Positions 41,652 through 48,256 of a DNA stretch of 64,000 nt are shown in pieces. The translations under genes were made by a program, and so were the position numbers. Source of the DNA: Candidatus Saccharicenans sp. (GTDB lineage Bacteria > Acidobacteriota > Aminicenantia > Aminicenantales > Saccharicenantaceae); the NCBI GenBank assembly GCA_024653215.1, contig JANLFU010000003.1, positions 62,001 to 126,000 on the forward strand, written 5' to 3'. How positions within the stretch are numbered: position 1 is the first letter of the stretch; every line of letters starts with the position of its first letter. The notes beneath the pieces were generated by a model that ran no database searches, was not told the origin of the DNA, and saw only the letters and a program-made list of their open reading frames with translations.

Positions 41652-41682
41652 TTAGACTTTAACCCCCTTTTTTTGCTATACT
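41652..41682 (+). promoter_or_regulatory. Possible promoter of the carbamoyl-phosphate operon
   Basis: TTAGAC (41652-41657) and TATACT (41677-41682) lie 19 bp apart, a long spacer, about 65 bases before the next ATG. The leader carries AAAGGAG as ribosome site. Confidence 0.35.
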
Positions 41683-41746
41683 TATCTATTAATTTTGCCC
41701 GAGGGCGGGCCGAGTTGAAATTTTATCCTAAAAGGAGTTTTTCAGA

Positions 41747-43051
41747 ATGAAAAAAGTCATTATCATGGGAGCTGCCGGAAGAGATTTCCACAACTTCAAC
41801 GTCTTCTTCAGGGATAACAAGGATTACAGGGTGGTGGCTTTTACCGCTACCCAGATTCCCGACATTGAGGGTCGCAAGTACCCCGCGGCCCTGGCCGGGA
41901 AGCTCTATCCCAAGGGAATACCCATCTATTCCGAAGCCGAGCTGACCGACCTCATCAAGACCTATAAGGTGGACGAGGTTCATTTTGCTTACAGCGATGT
42001 TTCCCATGAATACGTGATGAATAAAGCCTCCCAGGTGCTGGCGGCCGGGGCCAACTTCGTGCTGCTCGGACCGAATGATACCATGATCAAGAGCCGCAAG
42101 CCCGTGGTTTCGGTCTGCGCCGTCAGGACCGGTTCCGGCAAGAGCCAGACCACCAGGAAGGTGGCCCTGACCCTGAAGGCCAAGGGACGCCGGGTGGTGG
42201 TCATCCGTCACCCCATGCCCTACGGCGACCTGGTGAAGCAGGCCGTCCAGCGCTTCGCCACCTACGAGGACCTGGACCGGCATGAGTGCACCATCGAAGA
42301 AAGAGAAGAGTACGAACCCCACATTGACAACGGCATAGTGGTCTATGCCGGGGTCGATTACGGGGCCATCCTGAAACAGGCCGAAAAAGAGGCTGACGTA
42401 ATTCTCTGGGACGGCGGCAATAACGATTTCTCCTTCTACCGGTCCGACCTGGAAATCGTGGTGGTCGACCCGCACCGGGCCGGTCACGAGCTGAGCTACC
42501 ATCCGGGCGAAACCAATTTCCGCCGGGCCGATGTTTATGTGGTCAACAAGATTGACACGGCCGACCCGGAGAAAGTCCAGCTGGTGCTGAATAACATCAA
42601 GAGAATCAATCCCGGGGCCAGGATTATCAGGGCCAACTCTCCAATCTACGTTGAGGACGGTTCCCGGATTACCGGCAAACGAGTACTGGTCATTGAGGAC
42701 GGCCCCACCCTGACCCATGGCGGCATGCGCTACGGGGCCGGAATCGTGGCCGCCCAGAAGTACCAGGCTTCTGAGATAATCGACCCCAGGCCCTTTGCCG
42801 TGGGCAGCATCAAGAAGACCTTTGAGAAATACAATCACCTGGACAAGGTTCTGCCGGCCATGGGTTATGGAGAAAAGCAGACCAGGGAACTGGCCGCCAC
42901 CATCAACCGGATTGACTGTGACCTGGTGGTCAGCGCCACCCCGATCGACCTGAACCGGGTGATCAAGGTCAACAAGCCCATGCTCCGGGTTCGCTACGAG
43001 CTGGAGGAGATCGGTACCCCGAACCTGAAGACCGTGCTCAAGGATTTTTAA
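41747..43051 (+). CDS. Cyclic 2,3-diphosphoglycerate synthetase homologue
   Basis: 434 residues. An N-terminal Rossmann-like part (MKKVIIMGAAGRDFHNFNV) is followed by a P-loop segment SVCAVRTGSGKSQTTRKVA (about residue 122) and VDYGAILKQAEKEADVILWDGGNND (about 205), given here only to mark the Walker-B-like region. The archaeal enzyme from Methanothermus makes cyclic 2,3-diphosphoglycerate with ATP. Bacterial homologues often sit beside carbamate kinase and carbamoyltransferases, as here, and may use another acyl phosphate or nucleotide; the reaction in bacteria is not established as far as I know. AAGGAG lies eight bases before the ATG. Confidence 0.85.
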   Translation: MKKVIIMGAAGRDFHNFNVFFRDNKDYRVVAFTATQIPDIEGRKYPAALAGKLYPKGIPIYSEAELTDLIKTYKVDEVHFAYSDVSHEYVMNKASQVLAAGANFVLLGPNDTMIKSRKPVVSVCAVRTGSGKSQTTRKVALTLKAKGRRVVVIRHPMPYGDLVKQAVQRFATYEDLDRHECTIEEREEYEPHIDNGIVVYAGVDYGAILKQAEKEADVILWDGGNNDFSFYRSDLEIVVVDPHRAGHELSYHPGETNFRRADVYVVNKIDTADPEKVQLVLNNIKRINPGARIIRANSPIYVEDGSRITGKRVLVIEDGPTLTHGGMRYGAGIVAAQKYQASEIIDPRPFAVGSIKKTFEKYNHLDKVLPAMGYGEKQTRELAATINRIDCDLVVSATPIDLNRVIKVNKPMLRVRYELEEIGTPNLKTVLKDF

Positions 43052-43084
43052 TACGGGACGGGGCGAGGAAAGAGGCCAGAAAGC

Positions 43085-44071
43085 ATGAAGACCAGGATTG
43101 CCCTTATAGCTTTCGGGGGGAATGCCATTCTGCCCGAAAACCAGAGAGGACTGCAGGAAGAGCAGATGCGCAATTCCCAGAAAGCGGCCGAGCTCATGGT
43201 CCAGATCATCAAGAAAGGTTACGAGCTGATCGTGGTCCACGGCAACGGCCCCCAGGTCGGCAACCTGCTGATCCAGATGGAAGAGGCTTCCAATAAAATA
43301 CCCCCCTTCTCCCTGGATGTCTGCGATGCCATGACCGAGGGCAGCATGGGTTTCATGCTGGAAAAGGCCATCGTCAACGAGTTGCGGAAAAATTCCATAG
43401 ACAAGGATGTGGCCACCGTCATCACCCAGGTGGTGGTGGATAAAGATGACCCGGCCTTCCAGAAGCCAACCAAGCCGGTTGGTCCCTTCTATCCCAGGTT
43501 CCGGGCCCAGCAACTGGCCCGGCAGAAAAAGTGGACCATGGTCGAGGATGCCGGCCGCGGTTACCGCAAGGTGGTGGCCTCGCCCAAGCCGATCGATGTG
43601 GTGCCCAAGTGGATTATCAGGGACCTGGTTATGTCGGGACGGGTGGTTATTGCCGCCGGCGGCGGCGGTATCCCCGTTATTCTGAACAGCCGCGGTCTTT
43701 ACGAGGGCGTGGAAGCCGTCATCGACAAGGATTATGCGGCCAGCCTGCTGGCCAGGGAAGTCGGGGCTGACCTGTTCATCATCCTGACCGGCATACCCCG
43801 CGTCTATTATAATTTCGGGAAGCCCGACCAGAAACCCTTGCCGGTGATTACCGTTGAGGAAGCCAGGAAGTATCTGGAAGAGGGCCAGTTCCCGCCCGGC
43901 TCCATGGGGCCGAAAATCAGGGCAGCCATTGAATATATTGAAGCCGGTGGCCATGAGGTTCTTATAACCTGTGCCAGCCATCTCAAGGCTGCTCTGCTCA
44001 ACCGCTCCGGGACGAGAATCGTCGCCGGGGAAAAACCAAGAACTTCCGTGGAAATTGGAGGACAGATATGA
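43085..44071 (+). CDS. arcC: Carbamate kinase
   Basis: 328 residues. Amino-acid-kinase fold with FGGNAILPENQRG at the N-terminus, VVHGNGPQVGNLL (about 50), DPAFQKPTKPVGPFY (the PxKxxGPF loop, about 120), IAAGGGGIPVIL (about 195) and GSMGPKIRAAIEYI (about 275). Converts carbamoyl phosphate and ADP to ATP, CO2 and ammonia. Overlaps the downstream carbamoyltransferase by four bases, which points to catabolic use of citrulline or a related carbamoyl compound, yielding ATP. Confidence 0.96.
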   Translation: MKTRIALIAFGGNAILPENQRGLQEEQMRNSQKAAELMVQIIKKGYELIVVHGNGPQVGNLLIQMEEASNKIPPFSLDVCDAMTEGSMGFMLEKAIVNELRKNSIDKDVATVITQVVVDKDDPAFQKPTKPVGPFYPRFRAQQLARQKKWTMVEDAGRGYRKVVASPKPIDVVPKWIIRDLVMSGRVVIAAGGGGIPVILNSRGLYEGVEAVIDKDYAASLLAREVGADLFIILTGIPRVYYNFGKPDQKPLPVITVEEARKYLEEGQFPPGSMGPKIRAAIEYIEAGGHEVLITCASHLKAALLNRSGTRIVAGEKPRTSVEIGGQI

Positions 44072-44988
44072 AAAAAGATTTCATCACCATTCATGACCTG
44101 AGCACCTATGAATTCCAGGAAATGATGGACCTGACCGAGAAGATGAAGAAGAATCCCGGTAAGTACCGCAAGGTCTTAAAGGATAAGATTCTGGCTATGA
44201 TTTTCCAGAAACCTTCGCTGCGGACCAGGATGACCTTTGAGGTCGGCATGCTGCAGCTGGGTGGCGAGGCCGTTTACCTGGCCCCCTCGGATATCCAGAT
44301 GGGCTCCAGGGAAGGCGTCCGGGACATCGGCAAGAACCTTGAGCGCTGGGTGGACGGCATCATGATCCGGACTTTCGGCCATCACATCATCCTGGAACTG
44401 GCCGAAAGCACCAGGCTGCCGGTCATCAACGCCCTGACCGACCTGCTCCATCCCTGCCAGGCCATGGCTGACTTTTTCACCCTCAGGGAAAAGAAGGGCC
44501 ACCTGGCCGGCCTGAAGCTGGCCTACGTCGGCGATGGCAACAACGTCTGCCACAGCCTGATGCTGGCCGCAGCCAAGGCCGGGACGAGAATGGCCGTGGC
44601 CACTCCGCCGGGATATGAACCAAAGCCGGAAATTGTAGCCTGGGCCAAGGAAGACGGCCGGGATACCGGTTTTGAGCTGACCATCACCAACGACCCGGTC
44701 GAGGCTGTCCGGGAAGCCGATGCCATCTACACCGATGTCTGGGCTTCCATGGGCCAGGAAGCGGAGAAAGAGGCCAGGAAGAGGATTTTCATGCCCTACC
44801 AGGTTAACCGGGAACTATTCTCCAAGGCCAGGCCGGATACTTATTTCATGCACTGCCTGCCGGCTCACCGGGGCGAAGAGGTGACGGACGAGGTAATAGA
44901 TTCGCCCAACTCCATAGTTTACGACCAGGCCGAGAACCGGCTGCACGTGCAGAAAGTTATAATGATGCTATTAATGGGGAAAAAATAG
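44068..44988 (+). CDS. argF: Ornithine carbamoyltransferase
   Basis: 306 residues. Carbamoyl-phosphate site KPSLRTRMTFE (about residue 48), HPCQAMAD (about 130), ornithine-binding DVWASMGQE (about 225) and HCLPAHRGEEVTDEV (about 265) identify an ornithine rather than aspartate enzyme. Pairing with arcC argues for the catabolic direction (citrulline plus phosphate to ornithine plus carbamoyl phosphate), although no arginine deiminase is in the window. Anabolic use cannot be excluded. Confidence 0.93.
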   Translation: MKKDFITIHDLSTYEFQEMMDLTEKMKKNPGKYRKVLKDKILAMIFQKPSLRTRMTFEVGMLQLGGEAVYLAPSDIQMGSREGVRDIGKNLERWVDGIMIRTFGHHIILELAESTRLPVINALTDLLHPCQAMADFFTLREKKGHLAGLKLAYVGDGNNVCHSLMLAAAKAGTRMAVATPPGYEPKPEIVAWAKEDGRDTGFELTITNDPVEAVREADAIYTDVWASMGQEAEKEARKRIFMPYQVNRELFSKARPDTYFMHCLPAHRGEEVTDEVIDSPNSIVYDQAENRLHVQKVIMMLLMGKK

Positions 44989-44991
44989 GCA

Positions 44992-47088
44992 ATGGAAAAA
45001 GAAACACAAAAGCTTACAGCCATAACCGCCGAAGACATGGCTGTAGTTGAGCAGGAATTACTTCGGACCAACCGTCCGCTGTCGACGGCCGAGCTGGCCG
45101 AGAAGCTGGCCTTTGCCAAAACGGCCAGCCAGAGGAACCAGCCGGTCAAAGTCTACGACCCCTACGCCCGCTATGAAGTGGGTGATTTCATCTACAAGGA
45201 ATATGATGAGAACCTTCAGGTCGGCAGCAAGCAAACCGAGCATTTTCAGGGCGGGGTGGTGCTCAGAATCATAAATAAGGTCAGCTTTCCCGGCTACCAG
45301 TGCGAAATGCTGGAAGTTGATTACGACGGGGGCGGGCCTTTCCGCAAGTACATCGACTACATGAAGAAGACCAAGACCCAGGTTCTTCTGCCCTCCAACC
45401 TGGAGAACAGGGGCCTGGAACCGGCCATCCTGGGCCAGGAGCAGGACCCGCGGCTGACCGAACTGCCGCTCACCGAAAAGGACCTCAAAACTCTGGAAAG
45501 AAACCTGCGCAAGGTACTGGCTGCCTCTGACAGCTTTTTCGGCTGGAATGATTTCTGGCAGCATAATTCCAAGAAACCCGAGATAACCGAGGATAAGGTC
45601 AGGGAAATTTCAGCCGCCCTGGCCGGGTCCATCAGTTCCGAGTCGACCCAGGACCTGGTCCGGAAGCATTTTGGACTGGAACCTTCCTCCGACCTGTTCG
45701 AGCTCTATTGCCTGGCCCTGAATCACCTGCTGGAGAAAAAGTACCGTCGGGAGTTCACCTGCCTGTCAACCAGCAACTGGGGTAAGTGGCATCTTAAAAG
45801 CGTGCTCAACAACCTGCCCTCCGGCCTGCCCATCTCGGCCGAGCCGGTGGTCGTACCCGACCTGGGCGAGGTGGAAGGTCTGCAGCATACCAGGGTGGAC
45901 AATTTCCCCTTCAAGGTGTACCTGACCTGGCGGGAAATCCTGTCCGGGGCCATCCGGGTGCCCCGCAGCCTGAGCCGGGAATTCGACTCGCGCGAATACC
46001 AGCTGGTCGATGACGAGGACGGGAAGGTCTACACCGTCTATTATTTCCCCGAGGGAAATTACCTGCTGGGACTGTCTGAATTCTTCCGGGCCAACAACAT
46101 ACCGCAGGGCACCAGCCTGACCCTGGACAAGAAGGGGCCGGACCGGTTGACCTTCTGGGTAAAGAAATCCAAGAAAAAAACCTCCACCTTCTTCCTGGAG
46201 TATGACCGGGAAAGCGGGCGGTTTAGCCTGGGCGGCCAGGAAGTCTTCACCCTGGCCATGCCCAACAAGAGCATTTTCCTGGAAAAAGAGGTGGTAACCA
46301 GGTTGCTCGAGATGTCTGAAGAAATCCAGGACCTCGACCTCAGGCAGCTCCTGGTGAAAATCCTGACCTCGCCCGAGCTCACCGGGAATACCCGTTCAGT
46401 TCATTTTCTCAGGGTTTATCACATGGTGGACCTGCTGAAGCCGACCACGGCTGAAGACGTGGAATACGTCCTCAGTGCCGCTCCCGAGTTTGTGGCCTCG
46501 GAAAAGAAAGAAGGCATGTATTTCTACCAGGAGGTCAAGGCTCCGGTGGAAGTCACGGCCGAAGAAGAGGCCCGGGCCGAGGCCTCGTTGCTGTCTTCAC
46601 TGGCCGAGCAGCTGGCCACGGGTGAGGCGGAAGAAGCCGGAAAGGAAGCCGAAGAGGTGCCCGTCCAGGTGGAAGCTCCGGAAGAAGCCGGTCCGGTTGA
46701 GGTGGTCATGCCCCCGGCCGGGGCCCAGCCCGAAGTCCAGGTTCACCTTGAACCGCTGAAGAAAGAGAAGGAAAAAGAAAAAGAGAAACCGCTCAAGAAG
46801 AAGAAACCCAAGGCCGAGGAAAAGGGAGCCAAGCCCAAGAAGAGCGAGCGGCGGGTGATCGAAGAAAAGATAATGGAAGAAGAGTCGGAAATCGAAGCCC
46901 TGGAAGCCATCAAGGCCCAGGAAGAAGAACTGGAAGAAGCGGCTGAGGGTGGCGAGGAAACCATCCCGGTGGAAATCGAGGTGGCCAAGGAAGAGCCCAA
47001 GTTCGGCTTCTTTGCCGAGATGCTGAAGTCGGCCCTGGGCAAGAAGCAGCCGGGGCAGGCCGAGGAAGAGGACAAGGAAAAGAAATAA
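44992..47088 (+). CDS. Unrecognised 698-residue multidomain protein, predicted nucleic-acid binding
   Basis: Starts three bases after argF, so very likely in its operon. I know no family for it. Visible parts: a short helix-turn-helix-like start (about 12-45; RPLSTAELAEKLAFAK); a beta-rich module (about 55-130) with YEVGDFIYKEYDE; a helical segment (about 155-255); a beta-rich region (about 305-395) in which LLGLSEFFRANNIPQGTSL resembles the end of B3/EcoRII-type DNA-binding barrels; a winged-helix-like part (about 430-515; TAEDVEYVLSAAPEFVAS); and a low-complexity tail (about 520-698) of acidic and K/E runs ending in an amphipathic FGFFAEMLKSALGKK. No signal peptide or membrane helix. Codon use matches its neighbours. 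A regulatory or RNA/DNA-binding role is inference. Confidence 0.8.
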   Translation: MEKETQKLTAITAEDMAVVEQELLRTNRPLSTAELAEKLAFAKTASQRNQPVKVYDPYARYEVGDFIYKEYDENLQVGSKQTEHFQGGVVLRIINKVSFPGYQCEMLEVDYDGGGPFRKYIDYMKKTKTQVLLPSNLENRGLEPAILGQEQDPRLTELPLTEKDLKTLERNLRKVLAASDSFFGWNDFWQHNSKKPEITEDKVREISAALAGSISSESTQDLVRKHFGLEPSSDLFELYCLALNHLLEKKYRREFTCLSTSNWGKWHLKSVLNNLPSGLPISAEPVVVPDLGEVEGLQHTRVDNFPFKVYLTWREILSGAIRVPRSLSREFDSREYQLVDDEDGKVYTVYYFPEGNYLLGLSEFFRANNIPQGTSLTLDKKGPDRLTFWVKKSKKKTSTFFLEYDRESGRFSLGGQEVFTLAMPNKSIFLEKEVVTRLLEMSEEIQDLDLRQLLVKILTSPELTGNTRSVHFLRVYHMVDLLKPTTAEDVEYVLSAAPEFVASEKKEGMYFYQEVKAPVEVTAEEEARAEASLLSSLAEQLATGEAEEAGKEAEEVPVQVEAPEEAGPVEVVMPPAGAQPEVQVHLEPLKKEKEKEKEKPLKKKKPKAEEKGAKPKKSERRVIEEKIMEEESEIEALEAIKAQEEELEEAAEGGEETIPVEIEVAKEEPKFGFFAEMLKSALGKKQPGQAEEEDKEKK

Positions 47089-47161: not shown

Positions 47162-48256
47162 TCAGAGAATTAGCCGGCGGTTGCCGACCCGGCGGGTCAG
47201 GCCCAGCTCATCCAGAAATTCAAGAAGGGGGATGGCATACTTCCGGGTCAGCCCGGTCAGTTTCTTGAAGTCCCCGACACTCAGTTCCTTCTGCCCCCTT
47301 GTTTTCATCAGGGCCAGCTGCTGCTTCAGGTTCTCCAGCCAGTCGGCATGGAGCAGGAAGCCTTCCTGGCTCTTGACTATCTTTTTCTGCCTCAGCAACA
47401 TATCCAGCAGAACGGTCAAACGGCTGGGATGGAGATTGAATTTTTTGACCAGCTGGTCAAAGGAAGAAGAGGAAAACTTTTCCTGGAGCAACAGGTTTTC
47501 AATATCCCGGAGGATGGCCGTTTCTTCCCCCGAGAGCCGGGTTTGAAAACTGCTCAGAGCCACCAGTTCGCCCTCCAGGACTACCTTCCCGTCCCTGGCC
47601 AGGCGGTTGAGGGCCAGCAGCAGAATCGGCCGGGGCAGTCCAAAGCGCTCTTTAATTTTTTTAAGCGGGACGCCGTTCTCGGCCGGTCTTTTCTGATGGT
47701 AGCTTTCCACGTAACCGGCGATTTTTCCCAAAAGAAAATTAAAACTTCTCTGGCTCAGCAGAAAAAGAGGCGAAAACTCCAGGATGTAAACCTGTCCTTC
47801 CTTTTCCAGGTTCATGGCCAGGCGGCGAAGTTCAGCTGGAGTCAGCCGGCAGAAAGCGACCAGGTCTTCCTGTCTCAGCCCACGGACTCCGGCTTCGTCG
47901 GTCAGGGCCAGAAGCATCTCTTCCTCTGAACCGGCCAGCCTGTCCAGCCAGGCCGCCAGTTTTTCATCTTTGGCTTTCTTGAGTCTACCGGCCTCCGGGC
48001 AGATAACCTTAAGGTTGATGGGCTCTGAAGAACCGGTCGGTTGAAACTGTAGTCGGTCGTTCCAGGCCGGGGGCTCGGGTAATCTGGAAGTGACCAGGAG
48101 GTAGGGTTGTACGGTCCGGCTGGAACCTGTGGACATAACCCTGGCCGAGGCCGGGTATTTCCGCCCGGGAAGAACCAGCCGGCCACTCAGTTCCTGGCCG
48201 GGCTGGAGGGTCGCTCCTTCGGCCACAGCATAAAAACTGGTCTGTTCTAACTGCAT
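47162..48256 (-). CDS. SelB-like protein without GTPase domain (SelB C-terminal part)
   Basis: 364 residues. The first 95 or so match the end of SelB domain III in layout (the LPEPPAWNDRLQFQPTGS strand region, where full SelB has LPGDRFVLR and TIGGG). The rest matches the four winged helices of domain IV that bind the SECIS hairpin (LLALTDEAGVRGLRQEDLVA; then LGKIAGYVESYHQKRP; KKFNLHPSRLTVLLDMLL; SVGDFKKLTGLTRKYAIPLL). SelB is about 600-640 residues with an EF-Tu-like GTPase at the front; here that part is absent, and the upstream sequence is rnr. The frame is intact and ends with the usual VGNRRLIL-type tail. It is either a decayed selB or a protein reused for RNA binding. Confidence 0.8.
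   Translation of the reverse strand: MQLEQTSFYAVAEGATLQPGQELSGRLVLPGRKYPASARVMSTGSSRTVQPYLLVTSRLPEPPAWNDRLQFQPTGSSEPINLKVICPEAGRLKKAKDEKLAAWLDRLAGSEEEMLLALTDEAGVRGLRQEDLVAFCRLTPAELRRLAMNLEKEGQVYILEFSPLFLLSQRSFNFLLGKIAGYVESYHQKRPAENGVPLKKIKERFGLPRPILLLALNRLARDGKVVLEGELVALSSFQTRLSGEETAILRDIENLLLQEKFSSSSFDQLVKKFNLHPSRLTVLLDMLLRQKKIVKSQEGFLLHADWLENLKQQLALMKTRGQKELSVGDFKKLTGLTRKYAIPLLEFLDELGLTRRVGNRRLIL

Follow-up and report, generated by a model that had tools for sequence, protein, structure and literature searches.

What does a large protein do that is encoded directly behind a set of carbamoyl-phosphate genes in the Aminicenantes, a widespread and mostly uncultured group of bacteria? The question is raised by the 64,000-nucleotide stretch of Candidatus Saccharicenans sp. 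DNA that was analysed here as a whole (the window), which comes from a genome of 2.6 Mb that is 91.8% complete. The first-pass annotation of this DNA had singled out an open reading frame of 698 codons (its product is termed P698 here) and proposed that it ties the energy state of the cell to a nucleic-acid-binding factor. Taken as a whole that interpretation is partly supported: P698 is a real and unusual core gene whose B3 barrel had been read correctly from the raw sequence, and the link to energy state found no support. The locus comprises the following features, cDPGS being the abbreviation for the first gene of the operon.

41653–41685, + strand: promoter-like element of 33 bp before cDPGS and the operon (TAGACT, 18 nt, TATACT), from the genus alignment
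41747–43051, + strand: cDPGS, operon gene 1, a cDPG-synthetase-like P-loop protein, from the ORF, Pfam and a match to 9sxb
43085–44071, + strand: arcC, carbamate kinase (NCBIfam TIGR00746, 380.3 bits against a cut-off of 358.25)
44068–44988, + strand: argF, ornithine carbamoyltransferase (NCBIfam TIGR00658, 404 bits against a cut-off of 280.85)
44992–47088, + strand: P698, the 698-residue core protein, from the ORF, its relatives and purifying selection
47162–48256, − strand: SelB-like neighbour of 364 residues, convergent with and downstream of P698 (Pfam SelB-wing_2 and SelB-wing_3, without a GTPase)

The gap of three bases between the end of argF (44988) and the start of P698 (44992) is as first described, and both the carbamate kinase and the ornithine carbamoyltransferase pass their NCBIfam cut-offs; the cDPG-synthetase homologue named beside them is borne out by a weak likeness (E 5.4e-4 to 9sxb, over residues 209–320). 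The architecture of P698 had also been noted as unlike any familiar one, and indeed the whole protein gave nothing above the curated cut-offs of Pfam, NCBIfam, PHROGs or PADLOC. Against PDB chains, sequence and profile searches with the whole protein and with four segments returned chance-level matches only, nothing at or below 1e-3 was obtained against viral structures, and none of the titles listed from the open-access literature concerns the gene. P698 is a class-wide core gene without a name in any library searched.

That the reading frame is a real gene follows from its relatives, since 134 of the 142 genomes examined from the class Aminicenantia (a name we take to be that of GTDB) carry a matching one. 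The eight genomes without a match are 63–87% complete, and all 64 class genomes with a completeness of 90% or more and a contamination of 5% or less possess it. A single match was obtained in each of the 40 close relatives searched; five of the 142 class genomes give two or three, which overlap little or not at all on the query and appear to be fragments of a single copy. When a profile of P698 was run over a phylum sample of 396 genomes, 49 matched, i.e., 47 of the class and two of f16, an outgroup family in another class, which these two genomes represent in the collection, both with the gene; 347 were without a match. Two peptide patterns, narrow enough that distant relatives in other phyla could escape them, yielded 75 loci in a species-genome collection, all of them labelled Aminicenantes or Acidobacteria save one labelled Clostridiales and three that bear no phylum name. 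The closest named relatives, both at 97% identity over P698, belong to Candidatus Saccharicenans subterraneus (L126) and to a Candidatus Aminicenantes bacterium MAG (L127). The plasmids searched gave no match, and among 370 stretches of viral contigs that fit a pattern no relative was confirmed.

The descent of the gene fits vertical inheritance, because a tree of 47 P698 cores mostly matches the taxonomic families: f8, f9, f11 and f16 are each split off by a fully supported branch, the f16 pair forming a single one, and f6 is not one clade. Purifying selection is strong, with dN/dS against six close members of the genus at 0.04–0.08 for the core and 0.09–0.16 for the tail; of two more distant relatives one gave 0.074 for the core at a dS of 1.9, i.e., near saturation, and the other was not computable. 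P698 nonetheless evolves faster than its neighbour cDPGS (27–67% against 60–88% identity in the class regions, by best tblastn segments). Two relatives deserve a separate mention, as their reading frames stop early at 507 residues: L187, on the Aminicenantes MAG chromosome CP070825.1, and L091, on a contig of near-identical length in genome G322, where stops lie inside the P698 match. The early ends may reflect either a sequencing error or a shortened protein.

How closely is P698 bound to the genes in front of it? Two sets of loci bear on this point, 75 named loci and 38 class plus two outgroup regions, which overlap in genomes and are not summed. In the named loci the nearest upstream reference gene is argF in 72 cases and arcC in three, with 4–113 bases between the matches of P698 and the preceding gene, and cDPGS precedes P698 on the same strand in 64 of the 67 that have enough sequence (eight of the 75 are too short upstream for cDPGS); cDPGS is inverted in L180 and L183 and absent there in L184. 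In the second set the nearest upstream gene is argF in 25 class regions, arcC in nine and cDPGS in four, and a same-strand cDPGS was found in 35 of 36, two regions that start inside arcC being left out and the one miss (L089) being again an inversion. The short gaps make co-transcription likely, so that P698 is probably transcribed together with cDPGS, arcC and argF. In four of the 38 class regions the site contains neither arcC nor argF, and P698 still stands behind cDPGS; within the class, then, it keeps this place even where those two genes are missing from it.

Outside the class the picture is different. The cassette (41747–44988, + strand, in the window) is spread through the phylum, cDPGS itself having turned up in 111 of the 199 genomes of a phylum sample. 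Six of twelve regions from other classes have cDPGS-arcC-argF and none of them has P698, two of the six being those of f16. The cassette is also seen at ten loci outside the class, to which each f16 genome contributes one, and all ten end inside argF; for the other eight genomes, absence of P698 means that they were not among the matches of a search for it. In f16 gene and cassette lie on separate contigs, and P698 is found on the opposite strand between two genes that we take, from their ORFs, to be rph and rdgB. The gene is therefore not always with the cassette, nor the cassette always with the gene, and the association fails in both directions. Most economically, P698 would have been added to a pre-existing cassette in the common ancestor of Aminicenantia. 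The conserved linkage that had been looked for is thus near-universal within Aminicenantia and does not extend to the cassette elsewhere in the phylum or to f16.

These data bear on the idea of a regulator or scaffold that senses the state of the carbamoyl-phosphate cassette and possibly represses its own operon. It would explain the same-strand cDPGS in 64/67 and 35/36 loci at gaps of 4–113 bases, and the promoter-like element might serve as its site, being present in every one of the 17 aligned sequences of the genus, that of the window among them, with 0–1 mismatches at fixed positions and with a T tract and TTTAA after the −35 box (L130 and L141 were left out, as their contigs begin too near). 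The window contains no second copy of the element with three or fewer mismatches, and its TAGACTTTAA half occurs in the genome at chance frequency (6 matches against 5 for the control). Outside the genus the best match to the full element has eight mismatches. Since it fits an ordinary sigma-70 promoter and its full form is confined to the genus, autoregulation is not claimed and the element was dropped as an autoregulatory site. No ligand-binding domain was found in P698 with Pfam or NCBIfam. The cassette without P698 in other classes, the separation of the two in f16 and the absence of arcC and argF from 4/38 regions leave the proposed link to energy state unsupported; a cassette regulator is accordingly held to be unlikely, and P698 probably acts as a DNA-binding protein with a housekeeping role, not as a sensor of energy state.

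The case for DNA binding starts from the fold. An AlphaFold2 model of the core (residues 1–535, with 50 class sequences as input) reached a pLDDT of 90.4 and a pTM of 0.76, and the protein is divided as follows.

45028–45135, + strand: residues 13–48, first half of winged-helix-like unit 1 (helices 13–25 and 32–43), from DSSP of the AlphaFold2 models, a putatively split winged helix
45145–45456, + strand: residues 52–155, small beta barrel inserted in unit 1, from DSSP, SH3-like at best
45475–45564, + strand: residues 162–191, putative second half of unit 1 (helix 162–178 and a hairpin), from DSSP
45589–45795, + strand: residues 200–268, winged-helix-like unit 2 (three helices, a hairpin, W-G-K-W), from DSSP
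45910–46188, + strand: residues 307–399, predicted B3 pseudobarrel, from Pfam B3 at 308–391, Foldseek and invariant R314 and G319
46339–46527, + strand: residues 450–512, putative winged-helix-like unit 3, from DSSP
46528–47001, + strand: residues 513–670, E/K-rich linker, from the alignment of 40 relatives and composition
47002–47043, + strand: residues 671–684, motif FG-[ILF]-F-A-E-K-L-K-x-A-L, from the alignment, putatively the C-terminal helix

The assignment of residues 307–399 to a predicted B3 fold is well supported, by a sequence match as well as by the predicted structure, and it agrees with the B3/EcoRII-type barrel of the first reading. The first 15 Foldseek matches of the core in the PDB are all B3-fold proteins, the aligned query range being absent from the listing; they include the plant regulators 1yel, 5yzy (a B3-DNA complex), 4i1k and 6j9b, auxin response factors, and the restriction enzymes BfiI (2c1l) and LlaJI.R1 (6c5d). 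A probability of 1.00 was reached by 1yel, 5yzy, 4i1k, 6j9b and 6c5d (TM 0.55–0.59 by target length; 0.53–0.60 for single-domain B3 chains at this probability), and all matches at 1.00 among the 50 listed are B3 proteins, with modest E-values of which the best is 5.5e-3 and none is at or below 1e-3. Pfam B3 (PF02362) matches P698 at E 0.0012 in the whole protein and at 4.1e-5 in the isolated domain, where positions 3–97 of the 101 of the model are aligned and the score of 23.9 bits lies below the cut-off of 30.1. The same model is found in 10 of 40 whole members at E 0.1 and in 11 of 26 isolated domains, that of P698 at 4.1e-5 being the best, and the other 15 of the 26 remain without a match at E 1; B3 chains were not retrieved when PDB sequences were searched with a profile of the domain. 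In its own genome P698 is the sole Pfam B3 match (E 1.3e-4), and of 14 control genomes one has any. R314 and G319 are invariant in 40 aligned rows and the arm LTWREILSGA is conserved; in the f16 pair the KKSKKK strand and much of the arm sequence diverge.

The predicted fold is that of the plant B3 domain (PF02362; VAL1, FUS3, VRN1 and ARF1), several of whose structures are matched at probability 1.00. In contrast to the plant regulators, however, P698 is a bacterial core gene in which the barrel is embedded among winged-helix-like units, and its B3 domain scores below the Pfam cut-off and has no profile match to PDB B3 chains. Known B3 domains bind DNA, contacting the duplex with their N- and C-arms. 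For those of R.CglI and R.NgoAVII, binding to cognate DNA is described in PMC4267653, and like BfiI and LlaJI.R1 these enzymes place a B3-type barrel in a bacterial protein. Could P698 then derive from a B3 enzyme of restriction or of modification sensing, as a variant or a relic retained for defence? The bacterial B3-fold matches do come from restriction enzymes; P698, however, has no nuclease domain detectable by Pfam or NCBIfam and no PADLOC match, and unlike those enzymes it shows no methylase or helicase domain either. Its distribution, that of a core gene at a fixed place, differs from the patchy spread of B3 restriction enzymes, and with no plasmid match and no confirmed viral relative a defence origin of this kind is extremely improbable. 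The charge of the domains is near neutral or acidic (18 K/R against 16 D/E in the B3 domain, 9 against 16 in unit 3), which is unlike that of a general DNA coat.

Around the barrel the models suggest three winged-helix-like units, one of them apparently split by the small barrel, the calls having been made from the order of helices and strands in DSSP strings of the AlphaFold2 models. A helical start, the two beta-rich modules and the winged-helix-like segment of the first-pass annotation are recognizable in these predictions. G264 and W266 are invariant in unit 2 and H477 in unit 3, and residues 52–135 form the best conserved folded segment (0.63); for the small barrel Foldseek gave a weak match to the SH3 design 8jvz (E 0.52, the query range being absent from the listing). 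The N-terminal half alone found no confident match, weak ones being to SelB, Pelota and the SH3 design, and the winged-helix matches of the models, to SelB 1lva and 2v9v, are weak as well (E 0.17–0.44).

The likeness to SelB, whose C-terminal domains share by our reading the repeated winged-helix topology, opens another view, in which P698 would bind RNA as a factor of translation or transcription, with SelB-like winged helices and with a B3-like barrel that is structural or protein-binding. Core and N-terminal half both match SelB 1lva and 2v9v and the RNA-bound Egalitarian weakly, and the convergent neighbour, which carries SelB-wing_2 and SelB-wing_3 and looks like an orphan C-terminal half of SelB, adjoins an ORF that we take to be RNase R. 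No ORF of the 91.8% complete genome exceeds the SelB cut-off of TIGR00475, the best being two of EF-Tu size. The matches in question, however, have E-values of 0.10–0.44 and low TM scores, and every match at probability 1.00 in the list of 50 is to a B3 protein, a fold that binds DNA in the two cases described in PMC4267653. P698 itself does not match the SelB-wing models, either as a whole at E 1 or in its isolated segments at E 10 (filters drop weak matches), and unlike SelB it has no GTPase and possesses a B3 barrel and a tethered tip; the SelB-like neighbour, near P698 in most regions of the order, is not beside it in the f8, f9 and f11 regions. An RNA-binding role is thus a minority possibility.

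Behind the core comes the part of P698 that combines the freest and the most constrained segments. The linker between unit 3 and the tip measures 39–240 residues in 40 diverse relatives. The K/E-rich tail with a final amphipathic helix that had first been noticed holds for the window, where residues 516–668 contain 23 K/R and 45 D/E among 153 and a conserved, helix-like tip follows; it does not hold as a rule for length or for charge, as the clearly acidic tail of the window contrasts with two f8 rows computed to be basic and an f16 row near neutral. The tip, residues 671–684, has a mean majority-residue share of 0.69 against 0.45–0.63 in the folded segments (40 rows), with L678 present in 40/40 and the residue after F674 being A or G in 40/40, and it is kept in both f16 proteins (FGLFAEKLQAAL), whose genes stand apart from the operon. 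Such a combination, a short and conserved helix-like segment at the end of a tether whose length is free, resembles a docking motif.

The same arrangement might tether the chromosome to the membrane, as in the model of Noc: a putative DNA-binding core, a linker of free length and a terminal amphipathic stretch, which would here bind the membrane, are all present. A lipid-binding index (0.944 muH + 0.33 z) is high in three of six tips (0.92–1.32), owing to charge; it is 0.26–0.54 in the other three, and the hydrophobic moment is 0.22–0.37 in all six. Lipid binding is less likely on account of these low moments and of an index that is high in only three tips, and the fixed A/G and L678 suit a protein groove better than lipid, so that the membrane tether is weakened and appears very unlikely.

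The reading that is preferred, with a probability of about 0.5, is that P698 binds chromosomal DNA as a B3/winged-helix factor and docks a partner via its C-terminal helix. In this mechanism a vertically inherited housekeeping factor of Aminicenantia would reside on the chromosome, where the conserved arm LTWREILSGA (R314, E315, G319) would let the B3 pseudobarrel grip duplex DNA; further contacts, or the carrying of proteins, may fall to the winged-helix units. The long tail, presumably disordered, would act as a tether without fixed length, and the conserved helix (FGxFAEKLKxAL) would dock onto one partner protein and so bring it to DNA, with no obligatory part for P698 in carbamoyl-phosphate metabolism. 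More tentatively, the class may have adopted a B3-fold protein into its core DNA machinery, as a multi-winged-helix factor that recruits one essential partner through the tethered helix; candidates for such a partner are, for instance, RNA polymerase or a replication or chromosome-segregation protein. If P698 binds DNA, it would be a non-defence bacterial B3 protein and might bear on the origin of the plant B3 regulators; if the role in core machinery is true, it would be, to our knowledge, a housekeeping use of B3 beyond plants and restriction enzymes.

A partial parallel is offered by the delta subunit of RNA polymerase, which consists of a HARE winged helix and a charged disordered tail. 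In P698, too, a long charged tail comes after a putative winged helix; unlike delta, P698 is far larger, ends its tail with a conserved tip and has no HARE-HTH match (PF05066 gave none at E 10 with segments 8–200, 196–282 and 428–516, filters dropping weak matches). The strong conservation of the tip makes it a direct bait for the partner of P698. Within its own genome the tip finds only itself at E 10 or better, a weak test, as the first pass gave one candidate. A crude count of identities to one 9-mer gave a low score (3–4 of 9) to 20 of the 97 distinct proteins that were left after removal of 9 of 170 rows, which were short or had unknown residues, and then of identical rows; some low scores reflect cuts at contig ends or a wrongly picked place, and others are real variants, e.g., ILASKLDEIV. 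The 40-row alignment, which can favour such a motif, was used in place of this count. In the linker, residues 611–650 (46822–46941, + strand; ERRVIEEKI...EALEAIK) are fairly conserved as well (0.55) and may form a second helix or docking element.
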